From NCBI GenBank assembly GCA_018334055.1, contig JAGXSS010000004.1, positions 1-57,055 of the forward strand: DNA of 57,055 nucleotides, read 5' to 3'. A model generated the notes under the pieces. It made no database searches, was not told the DNA's origin, and worked only from the letters and a program-made list of their open reading frames with translations. Below are positions 2,341 to 6,277 of this stretch, in pieces (position 1 is the first letter of the stretch; every line of letters starts with the position of its first letter). The stretch is from Peptococcaceae bacterium. Lineage in GTDB: Bacteria; Bacillota; UBA994. Position numbers and translations under genes: made by a program.

Positions 2341-2460
2341 TTGGAATAGTATCTAGCACCAAGGGTTGTTTATATAGTCCTGAGTCCAAGGGTTGCTGCG
2401 GGCGGGGGAAATCACCGACTGGTGCTCTTTTACCTGCCCTTGTAGGGCAGGTATTTTATT
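2341..2460 (+). promoter_or_regulatory. structured leader with terminator, riboswitch-like
   Basis: A putative closing stem pairs AGCACCA (2355-2361) with TGGTGCT (2420-2426), enclosing about 58 bases that carry the repeat CCAAGGGTTG in two near-identical copies. Next is a 9-bp hairpin (2432-2440 with 2444-2452, loop TGT) followed by ATTTTATTTT, a likely intrinsic terminator ending about 20 bases before the ATG at 2478. GGGCGGG (2400-2406) can pair with the terminator 5' arm CCTGCCC (2433-2439), giving a mutually exclusive antiterminator. This is the layout of a transcription-attenuating riboswitch or protein-controlled leader; it matches no riboswitch consensus I know. Confidence 0.55.
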
Positions 2461-2477: not shown

Positions 2478-2723
2478 ATGGATAATCGTCTCGCCGTGAT
2501 CGGCATCGTGGTTATGCGCCGCAGTGAGGCGGCCAAGAAAGTCAACTTAGTCCTCAGTGATTTCGGAGAAATGATTGTCGGCAGGATGGGCGTGCCGCAC
2601 AAAGAACGTGGCCTGTCGGTAATCGCCCTGATTTTTGACGGAACGAATGATGACCTGGGCGCACTAACAGGGAGAATCGGCAACATCGAAGGCGTCAAAG
2701 TAAAGTCTGCTGTGACCTTCTAA
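2478..2723 (+). CDS. TM1266-type iron-only hydrogenase system regulator
   Basis: 81-residue single-domain protein with a ferredoxin-like ACT/NikR-C-like fold (pattern RLAVIGIVVMRR ... VNLVLSDFGEMIVGRMGVP ... ISLIFDGT-like strand ... LTGRIGNIEGVKVKSAV). Small proteins of this kind commonly sit next to hydEFG and are annotated as putative regulators of the [FeFe]-hydrogenase system; no DNA-binding domain is visible. The ATG has GGGAGG 9 bases upstream. It is the first gene after the attenuator-like leader and is 18 bases from hydG, so it is co-transcribed with the maturase genes. Confidence 0.8.
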   Translation: MDNRLAVIGIVVMRRSEAAKKVNLVLSDFGEMIVGRMGVPHKERGLSVIALIFDGTNDDLGALTGRIGNIEGVKVKSAVTF

Positions 2724-2741
2724 TCAACAGGAGAGTGAGGA

Positions 2742-4064
2742 ATGACTATGGATGCCAGTCAAATTAGAGCCACTTTGCAAAAAGCCCGCGAATGTCACGG
2801 CTTAAGCACTTCTGAAGCAGATGCGCTGTTGTCTTTACCCGAGGAGTGGGATGCGGAACTTTTCGCCCGCGCCAGGGAAGTAAAGGATAAAATCTATGGC
2901 AAACGCGTGGTACTCTTTGCTCCGCTGTACATTTCAAACTATTGCTCAAACAGTTGCCTGTACTGCTCGTTCCGTATGGAAAACTCCGCCCTCAAACGGG
3001 TCCATCTGACTCAGGACGAAATCCGCGCCGAGGCCGAACACCTCATTAAGATGGGCCATAAGCGAGTGCTGCTAGAGACGGGAGAGGACGATGCCTCCAC
3101 CCTTACGTATGTGCTAAAGGCCATCAACACGATTTATGGGGCCAGTGTCGATGGCCACAGTATTCGCCGCATAAATGTCAACATCGCAGCCACCAGCACC
3201 GAAAATTATCGCCTGCTCAAAAGGGCCAATATTGGCACCTACCAACTGTTTCAGGAGACCTACCACGAACCAACCTACCGCCAGATGCATCCTGCGGGGC
3301 CGAAGTCGGACTATCTCTACCACCTAGGGGCTATGGAACGCGCCCTAGATGGTGGCCTCGACGACTATGGTCTGGGAGTGCTTTTTGGCCTTTATGACTA
3401 CCGCTATGAAGTTCGCGCCTTGCTTGACCACGCGGAGCACCTCAAGAAAAGCAAGGGCATCGGTCCACACACTATCTCTGTGCCGCGCTTAAGGCCGGCT
3501 AAAGGGGCCGACTACCCGCTCAATCACTTATTGACCGATGCCCAGTTTGCCCGCGTGGTAGCAATCCTGCGGCTTGCCGTCCCCTACACCGGCATCATTC
3601 TTTCTACTAGGGAATCACCCACCATGCGTGATTTCCTGCTGGATGTCGGGGTTTCGCAAATTAGCGCAGCCTCTGTTACAACCCCGGGTGGGTATGCCGG
3701 CACCGGGGATGCCGATGCCGGTCAGTTCACGGGGGCTGACCATCGCTCCCTGAATGAGTGCGTTGATAGCATCATCAGCAGAGGATATGTCCCCAGTTTT
3801 TGCACCGGTTGTTACCGGCACCAGAGGACCGGTTCAGAATTTATGCACCTCGCAGAAAAAGGCCACATCAAGGAGTTCTGCCAGGTGAATGCCATCTTAA
3901 CCTTGGCGGAGTTTGTGGCGGCCTTTGGCGCGGAGAGCACGCGCCTGGCTGCCAACGGGCAGTGGGAGGCCTGGTTGCGCCAGATACCGGATCCTAAGCT
4001 GCGTGAGCAAACACGCCTAGATCTCGCGGCCGTGGTGATGGGGGAACGTGATAAATATGTCTAA
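2742..4064 (+). CDS. hydG: [FeFe]-hydrogenase maturase HydG (radical SAM)
   Basis: 440 residues. HydG cleaves tyrosine to make the CO and CN ligands of the hydrogenase H-cluster. The radical SAM motif CxxxCxxC is present in YCSNSCLYCSF (around residue 65), and the C-terminal auxiliary-cluster motif CTGCYR plus a later Cys in EFCQVN (near 350-385) distinguishes it from ThiH. The ATG at 2742 has an AGGAGAG-type site upstream. It overlaps hydE by 8 bases. The hydrogenase structural genes are not in this window. Confidence 0.95.
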   Translation: MTMDASQIRATLQKARECHGLSTSEADALLSLPEEWDAELFARAREVKDKIYGKRVVLFAPLYISNYCSNSCLYCSFRMENSALKRVHLTQDEIRAEAEHLIKMGHKRVLLETGEDDASTLTYVLKAINTIYGASVDGHSIRRINVNIAATSTENYRLLKRANIGTYQLFQETYHEPTYRQMHPAGPKSDYLYHLGAMERALDGGLDDYGLGVLFGLYDYRYEVRALLDHAEHLKKSKGIGPHTISVPRLRPAKGADYPLNHLLTDAQFARVVAILRLAVPYTGIILSTRESPTMRDFLLDVGVSQISAASVTTPGGYAGTGDADAGQFTGADHRSLNECVDSIISRGYVPSFCTGCYRHQRTGSEFMHLAEKGHIKEFCQVNAILTLAEFVAAFGAESTRLAANGQWEAWLRQIPDPKLREQTRLDLAAVVMGERDKYV

Positions 4065-5115
4065 CGCGCTTATAGCCAAGGCGGAGGCACAGGGGAACCA
4101 TCTGGAGCTTGGGGAACTCATCTCCCTCCTCAACCTGACCGACCAAGAAGTGCTTGATGAACTTTGGCAAGCTGCGGATCGGGTCCGCGCCAAGGAAGTT
4201 GGCGAGGATGTCTGGCTCAGGGGACTGCTAGAGTTTTCGAACTTCTGCCACTGCCAGTGCGCATACTGCGGCATCAGGGCCGACAATCGCTCCATCACTC
4301 GATACCGCATGACGGAAGATGAAATTCTCGCCGCAGCACGAGAAATTTCGGCTGCGGGCATTGGCACCATCGTCTTGCAGTCCGGAGAAGATGCATGGTG
4401 GACAGGGGACCGAGTCGCTAGACTTATTTCCCGTCTCAAAATTGAACATGACCTAGCCATCACGCTCAGCCTCGGCGACAGGACGAAGGAGGAGCTCGCG
4501 CTGTGGCGCAGCGCTGGAGCCGATCGCTACCTGCTGCGCTTTGAAACTTCGAATAGTGAACTCTACGCCAAGTTTCATCCCGACTCTACTCTGGCCACGC
4601 GCCTCAACACCCTCGCCGAACTTAAGTTTTTGGGGTACGACGTTGGTTCGGGATGTCTCGTTGGCCTCCCCGGACAAACCACCCGTGACCTGGCTTTAGA
4701 TTTGCTGCTTGGGCGCGATCTTGAGCTTGATATGTTTGGGGTAGGACCCTTTATTCCCCACCCCGATACTCCTTTAGGAAGCTGTCCGCAGGGCAGCACT
4801 GATATGACCTATAAAATGGTGGCACTAGCCAGATTGGTAATGCGCAATGTCCACATCCCTGTCACTACGGCCCTAGCTACTTTGGATGCTGACGGCCGCG
4901 AGAAGGGATGGCAGCGCGGTGCGAACGTCGTTATGCCCAATGCCACCCCACCGCCTTATCGCCAACAGTACGAGCTATACAAGAACAAGCGCTGTATAGA
5001 TGACACCCTCAAGCATTGCCGCGGGTGCCTTGGCGGCAGAATCGCTCGCATTGGCCGCCAAGTAGGGCAAGGGCAAGGTGGCTCATTGCGCAAGGCGGGG
5101 CGGACCAATGAATAG
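4057..5115 (+). CDS. hydE: [FeFe]-hydrogenase maturase HydE (radical SAM)
   Basis: 352 residues. HydE is the radical SAM enzyme that works with HydG and HydF on the dithiomethylamine-bridged diiron precursor. The cluster motif is FCHCQCAYCGIR (CxxxCxxC) around residue 60, followed by the QSGED segment typical of HydE/BioB-like proteins. ATG at 4057 was preferred to an upstream GTG at 4048 because GGGGGAA lies 10 bases before it. It overlaps hydG by 8 bases and hydF by 8 bases, so the three maturases are translationally coupled. Confidence 0.95.
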   Translation: MSNALIAKAEAQGNHLELGELISLLNLTDQEVLDELWQAADRVRAKEVGEDVWLRGLLEFSNFCHCQCAYCGIRADNRSITRYRMTEDEILAAAREISAAGIGTIVLQSGEDAWWTGDRVARLISRLKIEHDLAITLSLGDRTKEELALWRSAGADRYLLRFETSNSELYAKFHPDSTLATRLNTLAELKFLGYDVGSGCLVGLPGQTTRDLALDLLLGRDLELDMFGVGPFIPHPDTPLGSCPQGSTDMTYKMVALARLVMRNVHIPVTTALATLDADGREKGWQRGANVVMPNATPPPYRQQYELYKNKRCIDDTLKHCRGCLGGRIARIGRQVGQGQGGSLRKAGRTNE

Positions 5116-6277
5116 TGCCCCCCGTTCCGTGCGTCCCCACATTGCGTTGTTGGGTCGGTGCAATGTCGGCAAATCCACTCTCATCAACGCCCTAAGCGGG
5201 CAGAATATAGCCTTGGTTTCGCCAGTTTCCGGTACAACTACCGACCCGGTGTATAAGAGCATGGAGCTTCTACCCTTCGGGCCTGTTGTCCTGGTGGACA
5301 CGGCAGGGCTAGATGACAATAGCATCCTTGGCAGGGCTCGGGTAAAGCTAACGGCGCGGGCTCTGCGCAAGGCCGAACTGGCCCTCTTGGTCGTGGACAG
5401 TCTTCCTTTGTTGCCCATAGAGCAAGAAACCTTGACCGATCTCTGCCGGCGTCAAATTCCCTACCTAGTGGTTTTTAATTCTCGGGACAGCGACATAGAT
5501 GAACTTCCGCAGGATTTTAGCTTGGTCAATGCTTATAGTGGTCTGGGCATCCCCGCGTTAAAGAAAACAATAGCGGCAAAACTCACCGCAGTCGTGGTCG
5601 AGCCACCCCTAATCGCTGACCGGCTCCATGGGAACGGCGCGGTAATCCTCGTCGTTCCAATCGACAAAGCCGCCCCAAAGGGGAGGCTTATTCTGCCGCA
5701 AATGCAAGTGCTGCGGGATATTTTAGATGCGGGCCACCAGGCTATGGTATGCAGGGAAACCGAGCTTCACCTGGCGCTAAATGCACTAAGTGGCAGGCCA
5801 CAATTAGTAATCACTGATTCGCAGGTCTTCCAAATGGTGGCAGACGCAATTCCTAGCGACGTCCCCTTAACCTCGTTTTCCATAATTATGGCCCGCCACA
5901 AAGGCAGTCTGCCAGCACTTTCCGCTGCCACGGCTGCCCTAGCCGGCATACAGGCCCATGACAAAATTCTTATCGCGGAAGCATGCACGCATCACAGCCA
6001 GGATGAGGATATCGGGCGCATTAAAATACCCTCCATCCTGCGCCGGCAGGCGGGAGGAGAGCTTGACTTCACTTGGGTTAGCGGACAAGAATTCCCAGAT
6101 GAGCTTGACTACAAGCTAATTGTCCATTGCGGGGCCTGCATGATCACGCGAAAAGAGATGCTCTCCCGCTTAGCCCAAGCTAGTGAGGCGGGTATACCCA
6201 TGATCAACTATGGTCTACTCCTCGCTTACTACAGCGGCATCCTCGAGCGCAGCCTGCAGCCTTTTCAGAACACCTAG
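5108..6277 (+). CDS. hydF: [FeFe]-hydrogenase maturation GTPase/scaffold HydF
   Basis: 389 residues. HydF is the GTPase scaffold on which the 2Fe subcluster is assembled before transfer to apo-hydrogenase. An N-terminal Era-like GTPase domain has the P-loop GRCNVGKST and the DTAG switch (VDTAGLDD), followed by a dimerisation domain and a C-terminal Fe-S domain with the ligand pattern CTH near 295 and HCGAC near 345. ATG at 5108 follows a GGCGGGG site and overlaps the hydE end. Order regulator-G-E-F is an uninterrupted operon with no clear terminator before the convergent MarR gene. Confidence 0.95.
   Translation: MNSAPRSVRPHIALLGRCNVGKSTLINALSGQNIALVSPVSGTTTDPVYKSMELLPFGPVVLVDTAGLDDNSILGRARVKLTARALRKAELALLVVDSLPLLPIEQETLTDLCRRQIPYLVVFNSRDSDIDELPQDFSLVNAYSGLGIPALKKTIAAKLTAVVVEPPLIADRLHGNGAVILVVPIDKAAPKGRLILPQMQVLRDILDAGHQAMVCRETELHLALNALSGRPQLVITDSQVFQMVADAIPSDVPLTSFSIIMARHKGSLPALSAATAALAGIQAHDKILIAEACTHHSQDEDIGRIKIPSILRRQAGGELDFTWVSGQEFPDELDYKLIVHCGACMITRKEMLSRLAQASEAGIPMINYGLLLAYYSGILERSLQPFQNT

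Follow-up and report, generated by a model that had tools for sequence, protein, structure and literature searches.

RAT elements, the targets of LicT, SacY and BglG, are hairpins with two internal loops that are bound by a symmetric protein dimer; they overlap a terminator, and protein binding antiterminates. The leader studied here lies upstream of the [FeFe]-hydrogenase maturation (hyd) operon in a stretch of 57,055 bases, hereafter the window, which is contig C4 of a 2.38-Mb draft genome. It likewise contains a hairpin with two internal loops, for which binding by a symmetric dimer is only a proposal, but it has no Rfam match, no PRD-type regulator is encoded in the window operon, and the hairpin stays clear of the terminator 5' arm (unit 2 ends at 2408 and the terminator starts at 2431). 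The ANTAR dual-hairpin antiterminator elements bound by EutV, NasR and AmiR have terminal hexaloops with A1 and G4 as target sites (PMC3369931). They share with the hyd element tandem small hairpins beside a terminator and mutually exclusive folds, and a dimeric protein is the proposed binder of the hyd element as well. By contrast, the conserved bases of the hyd element lie in internal loops, its terminal loops have no fixed length or sequence (alignments A3 and A5) instead of forming the hexaloop with A1 and G4, and stabilising it is predicted to cause termination, not antitermination. Moco RNA (RF01055), a candidate riboswitch of molybdenum/tungsten cofactor genes (PMC2408646), is similar in being a cis-regulatory RNA dedicated to the genes of one metal cofactor, whereas the hyd element is a much smaller, repeated hairpin that had no Rfam match in the window or at 16 homologous loci.

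In Caldicellulosiruptor bescii, hydG and hydrogenase genes are under Rex repression, and the same is predicted for Clostridium thermocellum (PMC6391272, PMC8457756). Operator control by Rex covers the same genes as the leader (TM1266-hydG), but takes place at the DNA level, through a redox-sensing repressor. Rex-like sites (at least 11 of 14 positions) occurred near 15 of 69 leaders, a raw count without a shuffled baseline. Rex-like palindromes (TTGTTGAATATTTAACAA, TTGTGAAGTAAATCACAA) were located just upstream of the leader at L058, L174, L190, L053 and L172, which suggests joint Rex and RNA control at these loci; the RNA element would form a further regulatory layer beside Rex.

Searches of Rfam 15 with the window leader and 16 homologous loci gave no match above the gathering score and nothing relevant at permissive thresholds, the best permissive match in the window falling mainly over the terminator hairpin. 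The initial annotation, which could place the leader in no riboswitch class, thus agrees with Rfam. We found no description of a hyd leader RNA in the openly licensed PMC literature.

Leader architecture in the window

Annotation revealed that a short intergenic region is followed by the operon TM1266-hydG-hydE-hydF at 2478–6277, all four genes of which scored above the curated NCBIfam cut-offs. A membrane protein with a weak DUF5671 match is encoded directly 5' of the leader on the same strand (1541–2245, +). No match to a sigma-70 promoter was found within 2200–2500 of the window. The features of the leader and operon are as follows.

2331–2366, + strand: unit 1, upstream hairpin ACCU-CA-GGUGUUGGA(AUAGUA)UCUAGCACC-AA-GGGU (MFE fold)
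2379–2408, + strand: unit 2, hairpin CCUGA-GUCC-AAGGG-UUG-CUGCG-GGC-GGGGG, the conserved core with two internal loops (R1 and R2 matches; P2 covariation in homologues)
2400–2406, + strand: predicted antiterminator strand GGGCGGG, the 3' strand of unit 2, with its partner at 2433–2439 (duplex −15.7 kcal/mol; MFE fold of the transcript ending at 2443)
2431–2453, + strand: intrinsic terminator stem-loop, with the antiterminator partner (2433–2439) as its 5' arm (computed fold)
2454–2462, + strand: U-rich tail of the terminator (sequence)
2463–2468, + strand: probable Shine-Dalgarno sequence GGGAGG (sequence)
2478–2723, + strand: TM1266-family protein, putative [FeFe]-hydrogenase system regulator (TIGR03959, 104 bits against a cut-off of 60.8; PF21699; PDB 2NZC)
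2742–4064, + strand: HydG (TIGR03955, E 1.5e-153)
4060–5115, + strand: HydE (TIGR03956, E 5.2e-105; start uncertain, a GTG at 4048 also being open)
5111–6277, + strand: HydF (TIGR03918, E 1.3e-145)

The MFE fold of 2329–2460 comprised unit 1, unit 2, a small hairpin at 2413–2424 and the terminator. The leader folded more stably than its dinucleotide shuffles (z −2.54, with 3/200 as good). Unit 1 is a long stem with one internal loop of the CCUGA/AAGGG type, which retained full pairing in three members of the genus despite base changes. Unit 2 scored 30.7 bits with model R1 (E 4.5e-6, the unit itself being among the 22 used to build R1) and 27.0 bits with model R2. It is a somewhat degenerate member, with CUGCG in the second loop where CUGAG is expected.

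The switchable attenuator that the initial annotation had placed before the H-cluster maturation operon is supported, and homologous leaders show the conservation and covariation that the annotation had named as its checks. Its duplicated motif was recovered as CCAAGGGTTG at 2359–2368 and 2386–2395, and the CCAAGGG copies turned out to be the AAGGG half-motifs of the hairpins of units 1 and 2. The pairing suggested for the G-rich segment was also borne out, GGGCGGG being complementary to CCUGCCC in the terminator 5' arm. The terminator was correctly described as a hairpin with a U-rich tail, but the gap to the ATG (2478) is about 15 nt, not 20. The closing stem drawn as the structural core (2355–2361/2420–2426) did not hold up: it is paired at 7/7 positions in the window, yet one pair is broken in the genus relative G002, where a competing hairpin (2337–2345/2352–2360) keeps all nine pairs, partly through two-sided changes (a comparison of three genus members only). 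The closing stem would use the 3' strand of unit 1, and these sequences lead us to prefer the local unit-1 hairpin because the former loses a pair in G002 while the latter keeps all nine.

The conserved unit and its covariation

Comparison of about 70 leaders indicated that the core is a hairpin of about 33 nt whose two strands repeat one sequence (5'-CCUGA-N3/4-AAGGG-3', twice). Helices P1, P2 and P3 follow one another, with a GA/AA internal loop between P1 and P2 and its inverted copy between P2 and P3. The two internal loops are equivalent and lie on either side of the short P2, so the RNA is two-fold symmetric. Sequence is conserved in the loops and in P1/P3; P2 varies but keeps its complementarity. 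At the DNA level, the CCTGA-N-AAGGG repeat was found upstream of TM1266 homologues in families far beyond the window's own; such homologues occurred in 55/101 genomes ranging from the genus to the phylum.

The first 22 units had 91% of cells paired and 32 double-change cells. An alignment of 61 units, made by sequence alone, had 69 double-change cells against a shuffled mean of 23, and a 58-sequence alignment with divergent Clostridia units added had 82 against a shuffled mean of 27. For all three alignments, 0/500 shuffles reached the observed values of cells paired, double changes or covariation, and slid controls were much lower than the true register. P2 positions showed 5–6 kinds of standard pair, and divergent P2 helices included CACA/UGUG, CACC/GGUG, CAUC/GAUG, UUAC/GUAA and GAGG/CCUC. 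For the outer helices P1 and P3, the registers CCU:GGG and CCU:AGG fitted about equally well (86.8 vs 87.0% of cells paired). The leaders therefore share a conserved, structured element with covariation, as a riboswitch would; the conservation and covariation lie in a core other than the stem first drawn. A second, similar hairpin often precedes the core unit, and the window has both. Such a unit-1-like hairpin was present in 17/69 leaders compared with 1.7 in shuffles, and is thus significantly frequent, not universal.

Distribution and downstream genes

Model R1 was used to search 101 genomes and subsequently 398, and matches were read together with their downstream genes. Matches inside reading frames were discarded locus by locus as chance, and their number roughly agreed with the E-values. 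The element models matched almost only before TM1266, hydG, hydE or hydF, and occasionally before aspA. The hyd gene recognised first was TM1266 in 36, HydG in 16, HydE in 10 and HydF in 3 of 69 non-redundant leaders, with none in four, two of them near contig ends; TM1266 was often the gene directly downstream, and in one HydF leader (Anaerotalea alkaliphila) an aspartase-family gene precedes hydF. When R2 was applied to a fresh draw of 291 Clostridia (E up to 0.01), 22 matches were obtained, 17 of them before TM1266, HydG or HydE, one before an aspA-type ammonia-lyase gene and four elsewhere, about three chance matches being expected. One of the 17 (G407) has a unit whose relatives had already entered this study as a named locus, its own unit being absent from the R2 alignment. 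In the Victivallis class, which belongs to another phylum, 3/7 matches were positioned before TM1266-hydE, so the element occurs in more than one phylum; Victivallis vadensis itself is tentatively regarded as a divergent carrier. Named carriers include Caloranaerobacter azorensis, Tepidibacter mesophilus, Syntrophaceticus schinkii and Anaerotalea alkaliphila.

Several individual loci extend this picture. AspA has been linked to hyd operons and is able to provide the ammonium for the dithiomethylamine bridge of the H-cluster (PMC11736057); at L229 and L157 the element precedes aspA-type ammonia-lyase genes, in agreement with this published role. At L244 (G161:C16), an element (4365–4401, −) with a terminator lies directly before a 185-aa protein without a Pfam match (3735–4292, −), with a further element in that genome preceding TM1266 (L243); the gene of the 185-aa protein is a candidate for a new member of [FeFe]-hydrogenase metabolism. 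At L064 (G050:C1, 238–269, +) the gene directly after a canonical unit encodes the substrate-binding component of an ECF transporter (PF12822), and hydG in that genome is preceded by the element as well; the transporter may be a regulon member, or the match may be due to chance. Two elements were found at L231 (G029), at 1606–1640 (−) and 2161–2195 (−), one before TM1266 and the other between TM1266 and hydG. A TPP riboswitch (RF00059, 78 bits) lies close to TM1266 at L021 (G077, 989–1093, −). Two matches of the Clostridia draw were at chance level and are not claimed: L228, before an ABC transporter, and L220 (G556:C162), where a weak unit precedes NuoE/NuoF-type genes resembling those of electron-bifurcating hydrogenases and neither HydG nor TM1266 was detected in the genome. 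The L220 match is probably due to chance.

Predicted switching and the candidate factor

For a transcript cut at 2443, before the terminator 3' arm, the best fold paired 2400–2406 with 2433–2439 and opened unit 2; in the fold of the full-length sequence, unit 2 and the terminator coexist. In 43 leaders with a clear terminator, the duplex between the 3' strand of the unit and its own terminator arm had a mean of −10.3 vs −9.3 kcal/mol for permuted arms (z −3.1, p 0.0014), and the control with the 5' strand gave z −1.0. Per leader, the pairing was only modestly above that with foreign arms (median rank 0.40), because unit strands are generally G-rich and terminator arms C-rich. The leader thus holds a terminator and a competing antiterminator, as a Rho-independent attenuator does, and its computed expression platform is mutually exclusive with folding of the unit, as in riboswitches. 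A Shine-Dalgarno variant also exists: in a group without a terminator (L058, L174, L190, L193, L194 and L198) the unit runs directly into the hydG Shine-Dalgarno sequence.

If unit 2 were stabilised by some factor, its 3' strand would be tied up, the terminator would form and the hyd genes would be off; if it were not, the 3' strand would base-pair with the 5' arm of the terminator, letting transcription read on. In lineages without the terminator, the folded hairpin abutting the Shine-Dalgarno sequence would block translation. From these two arrangements we infer an OFF direction, in which a factor stabilising the unit is predicted to lower expression. Sequence comparison and computed folds together indicate that this is very probably an RNA class for H-cluster biosynthesis that works by attenuation, and the window leader most likely belongs to it as a new cis-regulatory RNA, a riboswitch only in the putative sense.

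As to what stabilises the unit, a protein-bound attenuator, for example one bound by TM1266, fits the data at least as well as a riboswitch in the strict sense. We lean slightly to TM1266 over direct binding of a small molecule because an auto-regulating symmetric protein would fit a two-fold symmetric RNA. A TM1266 dimer or tetramer would then be an RNA-binding sensor of H-cluster status that binds the symmetric loops and autoregulates the hyd operon, which we regard as somewhat less likely than not. Co-occurrence favours it. All 31 element genomes of the phylum draw had TM1266 above the cut-off, including those with the element acting at hydG, hydE or hydF and TM1266 elsewhere in the genome. 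HydG was present in 57/101 genomes of the relatives set, in which the element was found in 40/48 with TM1266 vs 0/9 without (Fisher p 2.7e-6, phylogeny not corrected); the 40/48 count derives from a relaxed search of hyd regions, and the matches in G036, G069 and G079, which precede TM1266, were counted as TM1266-positive. The Clostridia draw had TM1266 in 18/18 hyd-linked carriers vs 144/184 HydG-positive genomes (p 0.014). Two TM1266-less records had matches, L150 (a 6-kb MAG contig) and L220, the latter likely a chance match. These association statistics ignore phylogeny, TM1266 often lies immediately downstream of the element, and the 8/48 relatives with both HydG and TM1266 but no element also count against TM1266 as the factor.

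TM1266 has been termed a regulator, even a CopG-family transcription factor (PMC6391272). The window protein is 81 aa long and the family model spans residues 4–77, leaving no room for a DNA-binding second domain. Its fold is like that of 2NZC, the NikR C-domain and ACT domains, a resemblance for which a single-sequence AlphaFold model (pLDDT 65, modest confidence) served only as confirmation, and it carries a conserved basic stretch, GRMGIPYRER. The small size, this stretch and the symmetry of the RNA argue for an RNA-binding role, but we know of no RNA-binding ACT/NikR-C-like protein.

Direct sensing of a small molecule by the RNA is, in our view, nearly as likely. Conserved loop nucleotides with a covarying helix, tandem units, the existence of both transcriptional and translational platforms and a regulon confined to one cofactor pathway are all consistent with it, but the unit is small and unbranched and offers just two short internal loops, its symmetry would suit a protein site equally well, and the near-strict co-occurrence with TM1266 is not required by it. 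That the element responds to another trans-acting factor (an RNA-binding protein, a small RNA or the ribosome) is improbable: the data here single out no factor, but the pathway-restricted distribution favours a pathway-specific one. An ordinary terminator hairpin with chance similarity is very unlikely in the window, despite the modest folding score of its leader alone and the degenerate unit 2, and is refuted for the class by homologous units with a covarying P2 before the same genes in many families and a second phylum.

The RNA class has about an even chance of reporting the assembly state of the H-cluster, either with TM1266 as a new family of RNA-binding ACT/NikR-like sensors on the symmetric site or with the RNA itself sensing an organometallic H-cluster intermediate. 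Attenuating leader RNAs are known as a kind; the class, the symmetric repeated loop and the regulon appear to be new. We found no description in the openly licensed PMC literature of how H-cluster biosynthesis is matched to need beyond Rex, or of the role of TM1266. The element provides a search model for further regulon members, and for laboratory work a relative whose unit is canonical would be preferable to the window because the second loop of the window's unit 2 deviates. With an apparently undescribed RNA class across Clostridia and a second phylum, both the control of the H-cluster and the role of TM1266 become testable, and the element may serve as a genetic means of controlling [FeFe]-hydrogenase maturation, or of sensing it, in anaerobes that produce hydrogen.
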